Source of the DNA: a virus | Virus record (IMG/VR): IMGVR_UViG_3300034073_002919 | Span: 1 to 26,346 of that record | Strand: one strand, 5' to 3' | DNA length: 26,346 nucleotides | Part shown: positions 10,175 through 20,440 of the stretch, piece after piece | Layout: the number at the start of each line of letters is the position of its first letter | Numbering within the stretch: position 1 is the stretch's first letter | Notes under the pieces: generated by a model | Told to the model about the DNA's origin: nothing | The model's input: only the letters and a program-made list of their open reading frames with translations | The model's database searches: none | Translations under genes and position numbers: made by a program

Positions 10175-12025
10175 TTATGCTGGACGACCTATAGATTTGC
10201 TTTGATACTCTTCTGTTTTTGGTTTTACTGCATTTACAATTTTTTCAACAAATTGATTATCTCCTAATTTAGAAGTAAATATTTCTTCAAATTTATTCGT
10301 ATCATAATCAAATCCAGGTTCTTTAGAAAAGACTATTCTCAAAATAGGTATTTCACCAAAACTAACATTATATTTATTTTCGTTAATATTTTTGTTAACC
10401 GTGTATTCACTCATATCACTTGTATAGCTCTTAGATACAATTTCACGGGCTATAGGATTTCCATAATTATTGTTTTGATATTGTTGATATTGTTGGTTTT
10501 GTTGACCATCATACCTGTATGATGCCTCTTTAAAAAAGGGTATATTAAATCCTGTTTTTTCTTGGAGAAGTTTTATAAACTCTGATAACTTTTTTGGTAA
10601 CTCGTCCATGAAATTTTTTCCTGACTCCATAAATTTTTGCATTGTGGGTTTCAAATCCTCATAAAATTTCTTTACATCATTATTCAAAAAGGTTTCGAAA
10701 TTTTTTTGAATATCCTCTATTTTTTCATTTGATGCAAGTCTAATATCTTGTTGGGTCATTCCTCGTAGTAGTGTAGTTGATAGTTTATTGATTTGACTAA
10801 CTATATCGTCAGATAACTTTAATCCTTCGAGTGCATTTACTAATTTTTCAGGTGTTGACGCGGCAAGTACTAAAGAAGCTTTTTGTGAAGTAATTTCCGC
10901 TAATATATTTTCTAATCTGTCAAGTTGGTCTTTAGCAATTTGTTGTACGTCTTTGCCTTCTTGTCCTTCTCTTTGTCTTTCAATCAGTTCTTGTAGTTGT
11001 TCATCTCTTGCATCTTGTAACGATATTGTTTTGTCTACACCTTCGTCTTTAACTGTAATTTGATATTGTCCTCCTGAACCAAGTTTTGCAATATTTGCAA
11101 TATACATTTTATCTTCTTCATTTTCAAATTGAAAAGAAGGTGAAATTTGTGATAACTTTCTATCTAAATCAGCAGCACCAATTGCCAACTTATTAAGTTC
11201 CCCACCAGTCATTCCCATTTCTTTTCCTATCTCTCTTAGCATTAACATTCCTTGAGGATTAATTTTGAATTGGTTTGCCTGTTCATCAAAATATGTAAAT
11301 TGTTTGGTCATTTCAATTATACTATTTTGTAAACCCTCAGGGTCTGTTAATGCCTTATTCATTAATTGGAATGGGTCAGTCAAAGTACCAACAGAAACAC
11401 CCATTCTTTGGAATGCGGAAGACATTTCAATAGCCTTTTCTGGATTCAGAACTTGTTCTGCAAATCCCATCGTTACCCCCATATCAAATTTAAGTAATTG
11501 TGCTTGTGTTGACATTCTAGTTAAACCCATAACTCCATCTTGGAAATTAAACTGATTTAACTTATCTATGTTCTTAACAATATCAGCATAAACGTCTCTA
11601 GTATTAGCACCAATACTTTGAATATACCTAACAGACTCTCCTACTTTACTACCGATGTTTGTAAATTGAACCCCTATTTTTTCAAAACTATCAATTAAAG
11701 TTTTCGTTTCTACACCTGTTAATTTATTTGAAGCATATAGTTTGGAAACTTCTTCTCCGGTTGCGAGAACGTTTCTTTTTGTTGCAGAGGAGACATTATC
11801 AATTATATTAATAGCATCAATTCCTGTTCCTCCGAGTTTATTTACCAATGGTATAGTAGCAGAAACCGCTTCACTGAACTCTGTAACTCTTTGTCTAGAT
11901 TGTCCGAATCTTTCATTTAAAATAGTTATTGCATCATATACTTGTGCAATAGTTTCCTTCGTTTCTTCTGTCTTTGGTAATGCAGAAATGACAGGTGATA
12001 ATAATTTAAATATAAAATCAAACAT
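10175..12025 (-). CDS. Tail tape-measure protein
   Basis: This 616-aa protein starts with a hydrophobic/helical segment (MFDFIFKLLSPVISALP). It continues as a mostly helical chain with long Ala/Ile/Asn/Gln heptad-like stretches, including GLTRMSTQAQLLKFDMGVTM around residue 165 and a polar helical section around residues 330-400. A Gln/Asn/Tyr-rich linker lies near residue 520, followed by a compact C-terminus. Such a protein would fill the tail tube and set its length. T4 gp29 has 590 residues, so a T4-sized tail near 90 nm would follow from the usual 1.5 angstrom per residue rule (inference). It lies directly downstream of the gp26-like/frameshift gene, where tape-measure genes sit in many phages. 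A terminator and a TATTTAT word stand just before it. The call rests on position, size and helical character. Confidence 0.72.
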   Translation of the reverse strand: MFDFIFKLLSPVISALPKTEETKETIAQVYDAITILNERFGQSRQRVTEFSEAVSATIPLVNKLGGTGIDAINIIDNVSSATKRNVLATGEEVSKLYASNKLTGVETKTLIDSFEKIGVQFTNIGSKVGESVRYIQSIGANTRDVYADIVKNIDKLNQFNFQDGVMGLTRMSTQAQLLKFDMGVTMGFAEQVLNPEKAIEMSSAFQRMGVSVGTLTDPFQLMNKALTDPEGLQNSIIEMTKQFTYFDEQANQFKINPQGMLMLREIGKEMGMTGGELNKLAIGAADLDRKLSQISPSFQFENEEDKMYIANIAKLGSGGQYQITVKDEGVDKTISLQDARDEQLQELIERQREGQEGKDVQQIAKDQLDRLENILAEITSQKASLVLAASTPEKLVNALEGLKLSDDIVSQINKLSTTLLRGMTQQDIRLASNEKIEDIQKNFETFLNNDVKKFYEDLKPTMQKFMESGKNFMDELPKKLSEFIKLLQEKTGFNIPFFKEASYRYDGQQNQQYQQYQNNNYGNPIAREIVSKSYTSDMSEYTVNKNINENKYNVSFGEIPILRIVFSKEPGFDYDTNKFEEIFTSKLGDNQFVEKIVNAVKPKTEEYQSKSIGRPA

Positions 12026-12048: not shown

Positions 12049-12050
12049 GA

Positions 12051-12076
12051 ATAAGGACTGAAAATTCAGTCCTTAT
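12051..12076 (-). terminator. Intrinsic terminator after the gp26-like gene and its shifted extension
   Basis: A perfect 12-bp inverted repeat, ATAAGGACTGAA / TTCAGTCCTTAT, has a nominal 2-base centre and is followed on the minus strand by T-rich sequence (CTATTT). The stop codon of the shifted frame (12066-12068) lies inside the stem, so this hairpin closes the gp26-like transcript. Confidence 0.8.
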
Positions 12077-12218
12077 TATGTAATTCTTTCCATTTGTCGA
12101 GAAGATATCTTCTTGTAAAAATTGGCATTTTTTCAAAATCACTCCAACCAACATTAAAAAGAGTTGATAAAAAATAAAACTCATCAATCTGAATTTTTCT
12201 ATATTCAGAAGAAAGGGC
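12066..12218 (-). CDS. Frameshift-encoded C-terminal extension of the gp26-like protein
   Basis: In the +1 frame relative to the gp26-like gene, an open stretch of 50 codons runs from GCC at 12218 to TGA at 12068-12066. It begins ALSSEYRKIQIDEFYFL and has FNVGWSDFEKMPIFTRR and YLLDKWKELHNKD further on. It looks like real protein: aromatic/charged helices, a Trp, and an ending exactly in the terminator. The only in-frame ATG is 20 codons before the end, and a TAG lies upstream of the shift site. Independent initiation is therefore unlikely, and ribosomes would enter by slipping on the T6C run. Joined to residues 1-243 of the gp26-like protein it gives about 293 aa. Layout and place before the tape-measure gene match tail assembly chaperone pairs (lambda G/GT, P2 E/E+E'). 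T4 has gene 51 next to 26, but gp51 is far longer, so homology is uncertain. Confidence 0.65.
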   Translation of the reverse strand, partial: ALSSEYRKIQIDEFYFLSTLFNVGWSDFEKMPIFTRRYLLDKWKELHNKD

Positions 12219-12948
12219 GAAAAAAGTCCACCCCAAATCCTACATTAACTCGTAGATTTTCTCCTGATGGGGTTACAACTATTTTAGTCATATCTAATTT
12301 TGGCTCATTTTTTTCAATAAATGATTTAACATATTTAGAATCTAATATTGGCATTTGTTCTACAAATTTTGCAATTTCACCCGCATCATTGACACCATCA
12401 ATCTCAACTATTTGTTTTTGAAGCTTCATAGTAACCTTTGGGAAAACCCTTCCTTTCGGATAAGAAGATTCTAATTTATTGATATTCATAATTTCACCAT
12501 ATGTAAGAGGTTTTATTTTTAAATTAGAACCACTTTTAGGTAAAGTTATTGAAAAAGTACCGTCTGCGTTTGGTTCTTCTCCCTTAATTATAGGTAATGA
12601 ATCTAATGCAACAACGGTGTTAAAAATTTTATTTGTTTTTGGGTCAGTAAGGCTTATCTCCATTTCAGGTCCAAATGAAGTATTTCTCAAAAAGATTAGA
12701 ACCGCTTCAATATCACCTTCTAACAAATCATCTATTCTTACATCTGGTTCATATATCTTATTTCTTAATAAAGAAGTTGTAATGTTGTCTCCGCCTCCCA
12801 AAAGTATATTTTCATCTGATGCAGTTAAATATCCAACCTTTAATGACTTTTTTTTATTTTTATAGAAAATTCCCTCAGAAGGTAATGGTACCACATCATG
12901 AGGTAATGTCAGATTTTCTTGGCCATAAATTCTTGATTGTTCATCCAT
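12205..12948 (-). CDS. gp26-like baseplate/tail assembly protein (T4_baseplate family)
   Basis: This 247-aa protein has the opening typical of T4 gp26 relatives: DVVPLPSEGIFY, a short Lys-rich strand, YLTASDENIL, then LLRNKIYEPDVRIDDLLEGD and LIFLRNTSFGPEM. In T4 this family acts in assembly of the baseplate hub. The same fold is used by tail assembly chaperones that coat the tape-measure protein. No zinc-binding Cys pairs are seen in the middle. The frame ends GVDFFRPFF, and a T6C run five codons before the stop offers a shift into a 50-codon extension. The ATG lies only 3 bases after the T-run of a terminator, so output may be held below that of the tube gene upstream. Family call is good; the chaperone role is inferred from family and position. 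Confidence 0.72.
   Translation of the reverse strand: MDEQSRIYGQENLTLPHDVVPLPSEGIFYKNKKKSLKVGYLTASDENILLGGGDNITTSLLRNKIYEPDVRIDDLLEGDIEAVLIFLRNTSFGPEMEISLTDPKTNKIFNTVVALDSLPIIKGEEPNADGTFSITLPKSGSNLKIKPLTYGEIMNINKLESSYPKGRVFPKVTMKLQKQIVEIDGVNDAGEIAKFVEQMPILDSKYVKSFIEKNEPKLDMTKIVVTPSGENLRVNVGFGVDFFRPFF
12219..12225 (-). promoter_or_regulatory. Candidate programmed frameshift site (T6C)
   Basis: Zero-frame codons are GAC-TTT-TTT-CGC. A +1 slip lets a Phe tRNA (anticodon GAA) move from TTT to TTC, a better match, and puts the ribosome in the 50-codon open frame. A -2 slip leads to the same frame. It is not a standard X-XXY-YYZ heptamer for -1 slipping. Confidence 0.6.
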
Positions 12949-12951
12949 ATG

Positions 12952-12989
12952 TAAAAAAATTAACCCTGAATTTTATTATTCAGGGTTAA
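12952..12989 (-). terminator. Strong terminator between the tube gene and the gp26-like gene
   Basis: On the minus strand a 12-bp perfect stem, TTAACCCTGAAT / ATTCAGGGTTAA, with a 6-base loop is followed by a run of seven T. The next ATG is only 3 bases beyond. It probably ends most tube transcripts while allowing limited read-through into the assembly-protein gene. Confidence 0.85.
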
Positions 12990-13022: not shown

Positions 13023-13511
13023 TTAATACACTAAAACACATCTGTCCATTCTCAACATCGCAGTTATTGTTGCAAGTCCGTCTTGAGAATAATTCAAATT
13101 ACCAAAATCAACAGATGTTAGGAAGGTTCCATATAGAATCCATTTCTCAACAACAACTCCTGTAGGGTCCAACATTTCAATATCAACATCTTTTTTGTAA
13201 CCCGCAGCATATCCCATACGACCAGTAACAGATTCTGCGTGTAGACGAACCCATTCCATAAGAGCTTGTGATGCTGAAGGACCTATTGGGTCTCTGAACG
13301 TAACATTAAAAGCATCCCAATTAAACCTTCCCGCAACATAAGTTGATGTATTCAGAAAAGGAATGTCAATTTCTTTGATTTTTATACTAGGTCTTTTAGC
13401 ACTTTCTACAAACCATTCGTTAATACCTAATGAACTTGGAAATCTAAGAATGAAACGATTTTGTCTTTTCGGTTCATACGGTAGGGGCATTTTCATTAAT
13501 AAGTCAGCCAT
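13023..13511 (-). CDS. Tail tube protein, gp19-like
   Basis: This 162-aa protein has the size and pattern of T4 gp19, the subunit whose stacked hexamers form the inner tail tube. It opens with PYEPKRQNRFILRFPSSLGI (about residues 11-30), followed by WFVESAKRPSIKIKEIDIPF. A beta-rich middle includes WDAFNVTFRDPIGPSASQAL and the helix MEWVRLHAE. It closes with ILYGTFLTSVDFGNLNYS and ATITAMLRMDRCVLVY. These fit the family's barrel-plus-helix layout. It has its own upstream TATTTAT word 33 bases before the ATG and a strong terminator after it, suiting a highly expressed single-gene unit. No truncation is evident. Confidence 0.92.
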   Translation of the reverse strand: MADLLMKMPLPYEPKRQNRFILRFPSSLGINEWFVESAKRPSIKIKEIDIPFLNTSTYVAGRFNWDAFNVTFRDPIGPSASQALMEWVRLHAESVTGRMGYAAGYKKDVDIEMLDPTGVVVEKWILYGTFLTSVDFGNLNYSQDGLATITAMLRMDRCVLVY

Positions 13512-13607: not shown

Positions 13608-14432
13608 CTAGACTTCTTTTTTAGCTCCAGTTGCAGTAGAATAAGTTTTTACTAGTTTATCTGGTTTATCTTCAAAATGCTTCTTCATTACTTCTACATT
13701 CTTAGGGTCATCGTCAGAAAATCCTATAGTAAGTTTCTCTGGAACAAATTTATTACCTATTTCTTTCTTTAAGTATGCCTTTTTATTAAGTAATGCCGCC
13801 ATTCCTTTAATATAAGAAACAAATTCATCCATTGCAATAACCTTTAATTCTTCTGGGCTAGCAGCACTTCCTTGTCCAAATGTAACTGGATGGTATTTAT
13901 TAAGTTCTAAATATGTTTTGATTAATTCATTATCACTCATATCTTCCTCGTCCACAAACTTCCTATATTTTCTTAAATTTTTGACCAATTCTTTTTTATC
14001 GATTCCATTGAATCCTGTTAAGATATAATTGTAAATTGCTTTCTTTATTGTTGTTGGATTATGCCCTCTTGCTGTTATTATCGCAAATATTGAACCATTA
14101 TTTATAGCTTCTCTGAAATCATTGAACGCTGGTCCTGTTTTAGCTTTGAGTGAATCAGATATAAACTCTTTATCCCCTTCAGTTCTGAAATTTCTAAAAG
14201 CGTTATTTGCGAACCCCACAATTTTTTTACCTTGATACTCAAATGGTTTGTTTCCAATATCGTGTCTATATTTTGCAAAATCATCTGTACTCATACCGAC
14301 CTCATCCCCATCTTCAGTTTTTAATATAATTTTTGTTGGCATGTGTACAATGTTATCATCCCAATCAAAGGCATAATACTTCATATTTGGTGTAGTATCA
14401 TCCTTAAAACCTTCTTTGATAATATAAATCAT
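13608..14432 (-). CDS. HAD-superfamily phosphatase-like protein
   Basis: This 274-aa protein carries the HAD motifs in order. Motif I is YYAFDWDDNIV (D23 as likely nucleophile, D25 as acid/base). Motif II is IFAIITARGH (T120). A conserved lysine (near K233) comes next, and motif IV is IGFSDDDPKNVEVMK (D240-D242, metal binding). The section between motifs I and II (residues 28-115) is a long cap-like insert with ST-DFAKYR and a GDKEFI stretch. HAD enzymes commonly remove phosphates from small molecules, nucleic-acid ends or proteins; the substrate here is unknown. The gene has its own TATTTAT word and stands between sheath and tube genes, which in T4 are adjacent. A start at Met17 (14384) is also possible. 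Superfamily is sure; role in tail biology is open. Confidence 0.8.
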   Translation of the reverse strand: MIYIIKEGFKDDTTPNMKYYAFDWDDNIVHMPTKIILKTEDGDEVGMSTDDFAKYRHDIGNKPFEYQGKKIVGFANNAFRNFRTEGDKEFISDSLKAKTGPAFNDFREAINNGSIFAIITARGHNPTTIKKAIYNYILTGFNGIDKKELVKNLRKYRKFVDEEDMSDNELIKTYLELNKYHPVTFGQGSAASPEELKVIAMDEFVSYIKGMAALLNKKAYLKKEIGNKFVPEKLTIGFSDDDPKNVEVMKKHFEDKPDKLVKTYSTATGAKKEV

Positions 14433-14532: not shown

Positions 14533-17500
14533 TTAGATATTTTCAAACGAAGCACCTGTTGGTGTTATGAAGAATTCAATCTCAATAAATTCAAGTGCTT
14601 TTGTTGGTTTAAGATAGATTCTACCTGTAAGTGTGTTTCTATCCAAATCTTCAGGTGAAGAAGAAACCGTTACTCTAAAGTCATAAAGACCTCTGTCTCT
14701 TCTGATTGAATCAAGGATTGGGTTAACACTATCCAAGAACTGTTGTCTTACGATTTGGTCGTTTTGTTCGAACAACAATCTTACTGCCACTGCAGAAATC
14801 AATTTACGTGCTTGAAGAAGTAATCTTCTAACATTCAATCTATCTAATGCAGAACTAGCAACTTGTAATGTTTTGTTACCCCATATTACTGTACCAACGT
14901 CAGAGAAAGTTGCAATTGGGTTAATTCTACCTTGATATAGAGTATCTCTATCTTCTTGAGTTAGTTTTAATCTTGCCTTAACAGAGTTAACTAAACCTCT
15001 TGTATAACCCGCGGATGCGAACCAAGGGAAAGCTATATTATCTGTAAGTGCTAAGTTTCTACAAACCTCACCTGTTGGTGGTAAATAAATTTGTGTATTA
15101 TTTACAGTATCTCTAACCAATATCCAAGGATAGTATGTTGCGGTATAGTTTGAATCTATTGCTGAATTATCCAAGTTGTCAACTGCTTCTTGAGGACGAA
15201 TTATCAATTGTGAATCAGTAGCGTCTGGTTGATACATTGGGTAGTCAGGTGTAGTTGCGATGTATACAGAGTCAGCTCTTGAGAACTGTACCATGTTAAT
15301 TGTTTCCTCAACCAACTTTGGATTATTTACATAATCAATACTTGATGTTGCAAAAACATTTATATTTGTAGATTCAGGATTTGCAAAAGTCAGTATTCCC
15401 AAAAGATATGCGTAGTAGTCAGTGTTAGCGAAGTCTTGAGTATTACCTTCAACAGGTATTCTCTTAAACATGCCTTCACCAGTTGCTGAAGGATATCTAA
15501 CTGAAGGTGCTGCACCTGCCAAATAACCTGACGCTCCTAATCTAAATCTATCTTGATTTGTACGATTCTCTCTATAAATGTCCCATCCATCAAATCCTCC
15601 TGCAAAACACATAGTGAATTTTCTAGAATAGATATAGTAGTATGGGTTCTCTTGTGTTTCAGGGTCTGCTCTGAATTCTGCACTACCTACTTGGAATGCA
15701 GGGTCACCACTTGTAACATACTCGGAACCGATAGTAACTACAGTAGCACCTGAGTCCATATGGAAACCTTGTGTTAGGTAATTCCAAGGAACTGAATCGT
15801 ATGCTGTACCCCAAGTACCGGCTGAAGGATTTCTCTTTCCCTTATATTGTAAGAAAGAAACGTCAACACCCAAAGAAGTTGAAAAACCTAAGTAAGTTCT
15901 TCTTACGTTATCACCTGAAGAATCATCAACTGTTGCACCGTATGCTGAAATACCAAATGGAGGATTGTATATTGTTTCTCCAGGAAAATCATATTTTGTT
16001 TTATAAACAGGTACTGGAGAAGGATTTGATATTGCATCATAAATTCTTTGGTCATAACCATAGAATCCACAAGGTAAGGCATCTATTGGGGCTTCGTTTG
16101 ATATTTCAATCATTATATATTTTGAAACCAAAGGATACTCTCCGTCAAATGAACCAATTTTTTTACCAACAAAACTATTAGATGCTGGGTCCATAGTACA
16201 GTTTGTGAACTTTTCTATAACAACAGGATTTTGGTCAGTATCAAAGAAACTTCTTACTAATACATCAAATGAAAGATTAGAGAATGAAATATTTGCAATT
16301 GAAACTTTAACCTCTGTGTTAGCACCCGTACCATCAGATATTGATAAGAATCTGAATAACTTATAAACTTTATTTCCTCTCAACTCTGAAACAACATATG
16401 GTGTTTGAGGAGTCGTATATTTTTCCAAGTTCCATGCGATAGAATCTGCATTGAAACTACTTGCCTCAGGAAGTGCAATCAAATCACAACTTAATCCACG
16501 AATATAACCTTTATCGTAAAGATAATTTAATGCCACAGGGTAAACCTCTTCAACAAAGATTGGGACTTCATTTTTAGATTTACCAAAATTATCAACACCT
16601 AATACTTTAGTGATGTATTTACTGCTAACCGCAGATAATGATGTCTCAAAAGAGAAGGTGTCCCCATCTCTTGTGATACCTGATAGTAAGAACGTAGAAT
16701 AAGGGTTTGAAGAAACACCTGAGTAAGAACCTGTACAATCCAAAACAACATCAGTTGTTCCGGTTACTTCATATTGTGGTCCATGATTGTTTGAATCATA
16801 TAAAGAAACACCTCTTGAACGTAAAGTTGCAACAACTAAATTATTATATTCACTATATGCAGTACCTGAGTAAGTATAAACATTACCCGATAATGTTCCT
16901 GTATAAGTAGAAGATGCTCCTGACGTAAAATCAGAAATTACATAATCAAAAGAGAAACCTGAATAAGACTCACTTGTATAGTTTGAGAAATTTGAATACA
17001 ACCAAGCAGAGTTATCAGTATTTGATAATGTGTTGGCAGATAAACTCAAATTATTAACACCAAATACATTTGTTTGTGCGGTATATGTTGTCACCAAACT
17101 GTTGTAATCTTCTGAAGGAATTGAACCGTAAAATATTGCGGTAGTTCCTGTTGTAGAAGAGTTAGTTGCGAATGATGTTAATATATCAGTAAAGTCTTCG
17201 TTGAAAGTTGAAGTACTTCCATCAGAAAGTCTGTACTGAGTATTTAACAAATTATTTATTTCAGTTGGAAGTGATGATGTTAGAGATGCTGTACTTGCAG
17301 ATGCAACACCTGAGAAAGTAACAGTGAACGGTACAGCGGCTCCGTCAATTCCTATAGTTGAAGGATTTACATTCGCGGTAACTTTCAAAGTCCAAGAAGG
17401 ACCCGCATCATATCCTGACAAACCTAAAATTCTTGTAACAAATAACTGATTAGATTGTTGAAGATAAGATTTCGCAATATACGAAGCTTCGTATTTTGGA

Positions 17501-17724
17501 ATCTGTGTATTCACAAATTTTGTTGGTTCTGTTCCTCCAAAAAAAGCTTGGAATTCATCAAAATTTGTTATGAAAATTGGTTCGAATGCAGGACCCTTCA
17601 AAGTCTCACCAACCAAACCTAGTGTAGTTACACCTACACTCTGAGCCACAAAAGACAAGTCTGTTTCTGAAGTATAAACACCTGGAGAAACGAAAACTTT
17701 TTGATTTGTTTGTACTGTTGCCAT
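14533..17724 (-). CDS. Tail sheath protein, gp18-like
   Basis: This 1063-aa protein matches contractile sheath proteins. The N-terminus has VFVSPGVYTSETDLSF followed by TTLGLVGETLKGPAFEPIFI and a strand/helix pattern up to about residue 105 (SNQLFVTRILGLSGYDAGPS). The C-terminal domain has INPIATFSDVGTVIWGNKT, LDRLNVRRLLLQARKLISAV and a final beta strand, KALEFIEIEFFITPTG, that in this family swaps between neighbouring subunits. T4 gp18 has 659 residues. The extra length lies mainly in a Ser/Thr/Tyr/Gly-rich insert (about residues 110-345) and further middle inserts, probably surface-exposed domains. It has its own TATTTAT word 34 bases upstream and a strong terminator, as expected for an abundant virion protein. 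Confidence 0.93.
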   Translation of the reverse strand: MATVQTNQKVFVSPGVYTSETDLSFVAQSVGVTTLGLVGETLKGPAFEPIFITNFDEFQAFFGGTEPTKFVNTQIPKYEASYIAKSYLQQSNQLFVTRILGLSGYDAGPSWTLKVTANVNPSTIGIDGAAVPFTVTFSGVASASTASLTSSLPTEINNLLNTQYRLSDGSTSTFNEDFTDILTSFATNSSTTGTTAIFYGSIPSEDYNSLVTTYTAQTNVFGVNNLSLSANTLSNTDNSAWLYSNFSNYTSESYSGFSFDYVISDFTSGASSTYTGTLSGNVYTYSGTAYSEYNNLVVATLRSRGVSLYDSNNHGPQYEVTGTTDVVLDCTGSYSGVSSNPYSTFLLSGITRDGDTFSFETSLSAVSSKYITKVLGVDNFGKSKNEVPIFVEEVYPVALNYLYDKGYIRGLSCDLIALPEASSFNADSIAWNLEKYTTPQTPYVVSELRGNKVYKLFRFLSISDGTGANTEVKVSIANISFSNLSFDVLVRSFFDTDQNPVVIEKFTNCTMDPASNSFVGKKIGSFDGEYPLVSKYIMIEISNEAPIDALPCGFYGYDQRIYDAISNPSPVPVYKTKYDFPGETIYNPPFGISAYGATVDDSSGDNVRRTYLGFSTSLGVDVSFLQYKGKRNPSAGTWGTAYDSVPWNYLTQGFHMDSGATVVTIGSEYVTSGDPAFQVGSAEFRADPETQENPYYYIYSRKFTMCFAGGFDGWDIYRENRTNQDRFRLGASGYLAGAAPSVRYPSATGEGMFKRIPVEGNTQDFANTDYYAYLLGILTFANPESTNINVFATSSIDYVNNPKLVEETINMVQFSRADSVYIATTPDYPMYQPDATDSQLIIRPQEAVDNLDNSAIDSNYTATYYPWILVRDTVNNTQIYLPPTGEVCRNLALTDNIAFPWFASAGYTRGLVNSVKARLKLTQEDRDTLYQGRINPIATFSDVGTVIWGNKTLQVASSALDRLNVRRLLLQARKLISAVAVRLLFEQNDQIVRQQFLDSVNPILDSIRRDRGLYDFRVTVSSSPEDLDRNTLTGRIYLKPTKALEFIEIEFFITPTGASFENI

Positions 17725-20038: not shown

Positions 20039-20440
20039 ATGAGAATATTACCTCCTACAAAAATATACGTATCAAAAAGTAATATTCATGGATATGGAAT
20101 ATTTGCAAAAGAAACCATATTGGAAGGTGAGTTAATTGAGGAATGCCCAATATTTGACTTAAACATACCTTTAGGACATGCCAGCCCACTATTCATCGAC
20201 TACAGATTTAATTGGCCACAAGGAACTTTAAATTGGACAAAACAAGTAATTGCTTGGGGATATGGTAGTTTATATAATCATTCTGATAGTCCAAACGCAT
20301 ATTGGAAATCTAACATAGAAAAAGAGACATTTGAGTTTTATTCAATAAAACAAATAAACCCAGATGAAGAAATATTAGTTTATTACGGTGACGTTTCATA
20401 CTGGCAGGACGGAAGAAACCATGTTGAGGTTAAGAAATGA
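20039..20440 (+). CDS. SET-domain protein-lysine methyltransferase-like
   Basis: This 133-aa protein is a minimal SET domain, a fold that moves a methyl group from S-adenosylmethionine to lysine side chains. Visible landmarks are IHGYGIFAKETILEGELIEE (about residues 17-36, SAM-binding GxG type), IAWGYGSLYNHSDSPNAYW (the NHS knot motif, about residues 71-89) and INPDEEILVYYGDVSYW with the catalytic-type Tyr (about residues 107-123). No pre-SET or zinc-binding post-SET segment is present. It starts a plus-strand group; its TGA overlaps the helicase ATG (ATGA), so both are probably made together. The target is unknown; it might be a phage structural protein or a host protein. Fold assignment is good, activity unproven. 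Confidence 0.85.
   Translation: MRILPPTKIYVSKSNIHGYGIFAKETILEGELIEECPIFDLNIPLGHASPLFIDYRFNWPQGTLNWTKQVIAWGYGSLYNHSDSPNAYWKSNIEKETFEFYSIKQINPDEEILVYYGDVSYWQDGRNHVEVKK

Follow-up and report, generated by a model that had tools for sequence, protein, structure and literature searches.

The gp26-like gene analysed here very probably encodes the tail assembly chaperone of a T4-like myophage, in a short and a long form produced by a programmed +1 slip on a TTT codon. The window, that is, the whole stretch of DNA that was analysed, is a virus record of 26,346 bases (IMG/VR IMGVR_UViG_3300034073_002919) and comprises that record completely. Its minus strand carries a T4-like tail cluster consisting of the sheath gene, the tube gene, the gp26-like gene and a 616-aa gene. 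The features are as follows.

14533..17724, minus strand: tail sheath gene (phrog_23 tail sheath, E 1.4e-55)
13023..13511, minus strand: tail tube gene, upstream of the gp26-like gene (phrog_4542 tail tube, E 9e-26)
12205..12948, minus strand: gp26-like gene, 0 frame, 247 aa; predicted short chaperone form (TAC-N), by PF12322, phrog_150 and AlphaFold matches
12205..12267, minus strand: conserved RNA three-way junction enclosing the slip site and the 0-frame stop (RNAalifold, 18 pairs)
12231..12234, minus strand: GGGG tract 8 nt 5' of the slip codon, a possible Shine-Dalgarno-like or structural element (codon columns)
12220..12222, minus strand: putative slip codon TTT, second of the Phe-Phe pair, with +1 re-pairing to TTC; invariant in clade A
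12217..12219, minus strand: A-site codon CGC (CGY in the clade), rare (codon counts and clade-A columns)
12066..12218, minus strand: +1-frame extension including its stop codon, predicted TAC-C domain (intact in relatives; pN/pS 0.22; aligns with distant lineages)
12050..12077, minus strand: terminator-like hairpin overlapping the extension stop (perfect 13-bp)
10175..12025, minus strand: downstream gene, 616 aa, probable tape-measure protein (position and a weak profile match)

In the proposed mechanism, most ribosomes would stop at the TGA and yield the short form, and a minority would stall when TTT occupies the P site and the A site holds the rare CGC (CGY in relatives). The tRNA-Phe on TTT would then move one base forward onto TTC, and translation in the +1 frame would add about 50 residues (A-L-S-S-E-Y-R...) to give the long form. 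If the pair works like lambda gpG/gpGT, coating of the tape-measure protein would fall to the short form, and the long form would recruit tube subunits through its extension. The sequences on which this model is based contain two conserved frames, a TTT_Y that is always available, a rare A-site codon, the GGGG, an RNA fold and a characteristic gene order; a +1 slip on TTT, its stimulation by the GGGG and by a hairpin ending some 14 nt upstream of the P site, and a chaperone function would be in keeping with them. A programmed frameshift yielding a chaperone pair from a gp26-like gene had been proposed in a sequence-only reading of this DNA, and conservation, codon usage, selection and gene order all support that proposal at the sequence level.

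The junction and conservation of the shifted frame

The 0 frame closes at 12231-12205 of the minus strand with the codons GTG GAC TTT TTT CGC CCT TTC TTC TGA. Read across the junction, the +1 frame is W T F F A L S S E Y R K I Q I D E F Y F L S T L F N V G W S D F E K M P I F T R R Y L L D K W K E L H N K D; it stays open for 50 codons past the junction, up to a stop at 12068-12066. This confirmed the earlier description of a gp26-like frame that ends shortly after a T6C run and of a +1 frame that continues for 50 codons; the 293-aa fusion given there was reproduced when TTT plus C was read as a single step. The extension contains no ATG, GTG or TTG before the ATG of its MP motif, which stands some 20 residues ahead of the C-terminus, and thus lacks a usable start, and its stop lies inside the 13-bp terminator-like hairpin, both as originally described. 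A second, similar hairpin is located at 12960-12989, between the tube and chaperone genes, and both are built around TTCAG. Searches of Pfam and PHROG with the extension returned nothing reliable.

Clade A was collected from viral contigs and consists of 80 relatives found by scanning with the gp26-like protein and 43 loci found by scanning with the extension; since the relatives, in this clade and beyond it, are not phylogenetically independent, counts among them overstate the independent evidence. The sequence-only reading had named a shifted frame that is not conserved in relatives as grounds for its own refutation; the frame proved to be intact, with the same starting point, in every clade-A gp26 relative whose contig was long enough to reach it. 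In 41 representatives of <95% identity, third-position variability had the phase of the 0 frame as far as the Arg codon, and that of the +1 frame once the stop codon was reached. The +1 extension is under purifying selection, with a pN/pS of 0.22 in the +1 frame compared with 0.81 and 1.59 in the other two frames over the same stretch, and 0.32 in the 0 frame upstream (47 representatives). Conservation of the extension and these pN/pS values together rule out sequencing error and chance, and a conserved shifted-frame overlap near the 3' end is what is expected of a chaperone pair. No relative was found in bacterial genome contigs. The T6C homopolymer, whose conservation in related genomes had been proposed as a check, was rejected as the signal because it is not conserved: relatives read TTC TTT CGY, and the invariant part is the second TTT. 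In L045, L061, L063 and related loci, the 0-frame TGA is replaced by GGA, so that the 0-frame stop moves two codons on, leaving the shifted frame unaffected.

The proposed slip codon and competing explanations

The second Phe codon was TTT in 35/35 clade-A representatives, with variation at the first Phe codon and at eight other conserved Phe columns. TTT followed by T or C was present at 144/144 distinct junctions of clades A, B and C, versus 4.3% of six-codon control windows from the same genes; tRNA-Phe can therefore fully re-pair one step forward at every junction. Some relatives have a +1-frame TAG just upstream (GTA GAN), which confines the shift to GAN TTY TTT CGY CCT TTC TTC. The following codon is also unusual: CGC occurs once in the 8487 codons of the window's 16 main genes, at the slip site, with AGA accounting for 76% of Arg codons, and Arg244 is CGY in 35/35 clade-A representatives, the other conserved Arg columns being AGA/AGG. 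TTT_CGY was found in all clade-A sequences and in Streptococcus phage GXN1, which places these sites in the UUU_CGN +1 class, with the direction read from sequence only. A +1 slip on TTT_CGY is favoured because TTT_Y is universal, -2 re-pairing is often impossible, TTT and CGY are invariant, CGC is rare and a UUU_C precedent is known. The original guess of a +1 slip from TTT to TTC is the best-supported option. As for other signal classes, the -1 heptamer (X_XXY_YYZ) does not match, since the extension lies in the +1 frame in the window and in clades A-C and in the -1 frame only in the related phages L130, L131, L136 and L137. Nor does a prfB-type site: four sense codons separate the slip codon from the stop, the stop is missing at that place in some relatives, and the GGGG stands 8 nt from the slip codon, whereas a prfB-type site has its slip codon immediately ahead of a stop and a Shine-Dalgarno-like element about 3 nt 5'.

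The earlier reading had left the shift as '+1/-2', of which the +1 part is the better supported. A programmed -2 frameshift, as in phage Mu, would enter the identical reading frame with one extra residue, and the T6-T7 runs of many relatives, the window included, would let tRNA-Phe re-pair two bases back; however, strict -2 re-pairing is missing in 6/35 clade-A and 25/48 clade-B junctions, being impossible in TTC TTT CGY (clade A), in TTT CTT and TTT CTA (clade B) and in L135, although the shifted frame is conserved in all of them, and the F-F-G/A/V-L-S/T...Y-R alignment of the extension needs no extra residue. We regard this explanation as improbable. Slightly less so, but still unlikely, is a programmed +1 slip at another codon, namely CGY_C, CCT_T or, in a prfB-like manner, the last TTC before the stop. 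In favour of such a slip, clade A keeps CCTTTCTTC without variation and most relatives have a stop after it, but tRNA re-pairing would be poor at all three codons, the stop is replaced by GGA in some relatives, and clades B and C are without TTC TTC; the invariance of CCTTTCTTC in clade A is attributable to overlapping coding together with an RNA helix.

The remaining explanations dispense with a ribosomal slip. Slippage of transcription on the T run, adding or removing mRNA bases, would suit the T6 of the window and the T6-T7 of many relatives, but relatives with just TTCTTTC or TTTCTTTGG keep the shifted frame, which makes this reading very improbable. We give an equally small chance to the extension being a separate small gene with its own start: an ORF is annotated there in some records (SP15_046; Microcystis WWT39326.1), but the annotated starts disagree between relatives, and the window's extension is devoid of ATG, GTG and TTG until its last part. 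A single gene split by an indel, through sequencing error or as a pseudogene, could be imagined from the homopolymer at the junction; a similar junction recurs in >200 independent contigs and in cultured phages, among which no in-frame fusion was seen, and the probability of this explanation is negligible.

The G tract and the RNA fold around the proposed slip site

Sequence constraint is also seen 5' of the slip codon. Gly239 is GGG in 35/35 clade-A representatives, with GGG being a minority at all other conserved Gly columns, and the equivalent column of clade B has GGG in 27/42 Gly versus 31/587 elsewhere. The spacing of the resulting GGGG is within the range at which it could meet the anti-Shine-Dalgarno sequence. 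RNAalifold analysis of 28 sequences gave a three-way junction composed of GGAGA paired with TCTTC, a hairpin at columns 10-32, and GGGGT(N)GA paired with TCGYCCT, the last enclosing the slip codon. In this fold 97.8% of cells were paired, compared with <=71% when partners were slid, and its covariation score exceeded all 500 shuffles. The mean folding z was -2.56 (36 sequences); along the gene, the junction window reached -2.67 (25 representatives), whereas none of the other tested windows fell below -1.41. Pair 15-27, which joins two synonymous third positions, had the top mutual information among the third-position pairs tested. Helices 1 and 3 are nearly invariant and their support is consequently energetic only; in relatives where TAA or GGA replaces TGA, the outermost pairs are lost. 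Clade C had its lowest mean z, -1.41, in the same window, and clade B gave no clear folding signal there.

Because the fold encloses the slip site, most of it would be melted with a ribosome in place, and helices 1 and 3 would be open during the slip. The helix-2 hairpin finishes some 14 nt upstream of the codon in the P site, and re-forming of this hairpin could push the ribosome forward. The three-way junction would account for the invariant GGA (Gly229), GGG (Gly239), CCT and TTC TTC. The site extends further 5' than had been indicated, to the GGGG (12234-12231) and the fold (12267-12205). A simple 3' stimulatory structure was rejected, with a z of -0.83 over 156 nt downstream, and a search for known RNA families yielded just a sub-threshold FsrA match elsewhere (18.7 bits vs 80).

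Gene neighbourhood, related phages and known systems

The 0-frame protein matched the PF12322 T4_baseplate profile (E 2.9e-7; 30.8 bits, above the curated cut-off of 24.5) and the phrog_150 baseplate hub (E 2.6e-10). Its AlphaFold model (pLDDT 85.7) found its matches in BFVD among predicted proteins, namely 'baseplate hub assembly' proteins, a T4-like gp26 and a gp51-like protein; a structure search with the same model found no similar solved structure, and profiles compared directly with individual T4 gp26 and gp51 sequences gave no significant match. Residues 212-248 at the C-terminus of T4 gp51 were weakly similar to the extension, with 47/2000 shuffles scoring as high, which is expected if gp51 is a long form. 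The 10175..12025 product is probably the tape-measure protein, its match to the annotated immuto tape-measure protein profile being weak in the window (prob 53%, E 1.4e-4), and annotated tape-measure genes lie downstream of gp26 homologues in immuto, SP-15 and LIS04. The order of tube, gp26 and tape-measure genes is that of a frameshifted tail assembly chaperone pair, with the weak tape-measure match in the window as its least certain member. Sheath and tube genes are normally neighbours; in the window, a 274-aa gene at 13608-14432 (minus strand) separates them. The product of 20039-20440 (plus strand) may be a small SET-domain-like protein. Most genes of the window are without a clear Shine-Dalgarno motif and its GC content is 32%; together with Flavobacterium relatives, this suggests a Bacteroidota host.

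In clade B, around the cultured Flavobacterium phage immuto (NC_055915), the 0 frame is TTT (CTT, TTT or CTA) TGG or TAC CCT and the +1 frame encodes FFGLTPEYR... The 0 frame of clade C, the group of Microcystis phage Mel-JY01, is (T/C)TT TTT TGG or TAC CCT, with the same +1 extension; 75/78 of its members were classed as +1 by the longest-frame rule, and the remaining three have the same site. The extension is also in the +1 frame in Rhodothermus phage RM378 (TTT TTT TGG), Streptococcus phage GXN1 (TTC TTT CGT), Bacillus phage SP-15, Listeria phage LIS04 and a 484-kb uncultured phage, and marine contigs show the same arrangement. The Phe-Phe position is shared by Xanthomonas phage XacN1, a 595-kb uncultured phage, Desulfovibrio phage 7757 and Aeromonas phage Ahp1, but these carry their extension in the -1 frame. 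The -1 extensions of L130, L131, L136 and L137 lie on poly-T sites. The extensions share FF..L....R and (W/Y)....MP...R motifs. The window's virus and at least 140 distinct relatives carry a conserved signal that most likely causes a one-base forward skip in some ribosomes near the end of the tail helper gene. We consider it somewhat probable that a large, mostly uncultured T4-like set makes its gp26-type chaperone by a +1 slip on UUU_Y, that one clade adds UUU_CGY and the three-way-junction RNA as a composite signal, and that, as the -1 relatives at the same Phe-Phe indicate, the direction switched in evolution while the product was kept. The occurrence of -1 and +1 at one position in one protein family opens the evolution of frameshift direction to study.

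Vladimirov, Gautam and Davidson reportedly assigned T4 gp26 as TAC-N and gp51 as TAC-NC, and are said to have found frameshifting conserved in several T4-like groups. As cited in PMC12846349, their study (Virology 2022) identified the tail assembly chaperones of T4-like phages, and sites of such chaperones are cited in that same paper on phage Adele as poly-T -1 signals. The earlier reading was right to tie T4 gp26 to the classical chaperone system but, going by these citing passages, the connection is not new, gp26/gp51 chaperones and T4-like frameshifting having been published in 2022. T4 gp26 and gp51 belong to the same PF12322 family, and the predicted fold of the 0-frame protein matches gp26 and gp51-like proteins; T4, however, has two chaperone genes, in contrast to one gene plus a shift here, and the T4-like sites as cited (PMC12846349) are -1 rather than +1. 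Lambda gpG/gpGT and P2 E/E+E' likewise give a short and an extended product from one gene between the tube and tape-measure genes, but by -1 slips on heptamers instead of a P-site TTT_Y +1 slip. The Vandenendeviridae/Andersonviridae TAC (phage Adele) also has a conserved overlapping extension at the 3' end of its gene, but its shift is -1 on a GTTTTT motif (PMC12846349).

A comparable signal is that of influenza A PA-X, where P-site UUU_C with a restricted A-site codon was established as a +1 mechanism by protein sequencing and a wider class was predicted (PMC3498833), and UUU_CGN is prevalent in plant amalgaviruses (PMC5052127). Both share with the present site a P-site UUU followed by C, an A-site CGN and the +1 direction (PMC3498833, PMC5052127), whereas they involve eukaryotic ribosomes and unrelated genes; the likeness would be convergent, and a GGGG tract and RNA fold are added here. 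Shifts of +1 also occur in structural genes of other tailed viruses, in tail assembly of the haloarchaeal myovirus HSTV-2 and in Listeria PSA, in the latter case at a proline codon, within the genes for capsid and tail shaft. A +1 TTT_Y class in the gp26 family was not found described in the literature searched, which covered Vladimirov et al. 2022 through its citation. The principle is known; what looks new is the +1 TTT_Y variant, how widely it occurs and the RNA element. These would extend frameshifted gp26-type tail chaperones to wide environmental T4-like groups and offer, in bacteria, an abundantly sampled natural example of forward slipping on UUU_Y, a type of signal known hitherto mostly from eukaryotic viruses.

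In SP-15, immuto and Mel-JY01, the extension is truncated or given a wrong start by gene callers, and these annotations need joining. Small 'hypothetical protein' genes are annotated downstream of gp26 homologues at L129 4740-4859 (SP15_046), L134 3151-3261 (KNV73_gp038) and L133 3071-3307; at least SP15_046 and the Microcystis ORF fall within the frameshifted chaperone extension.
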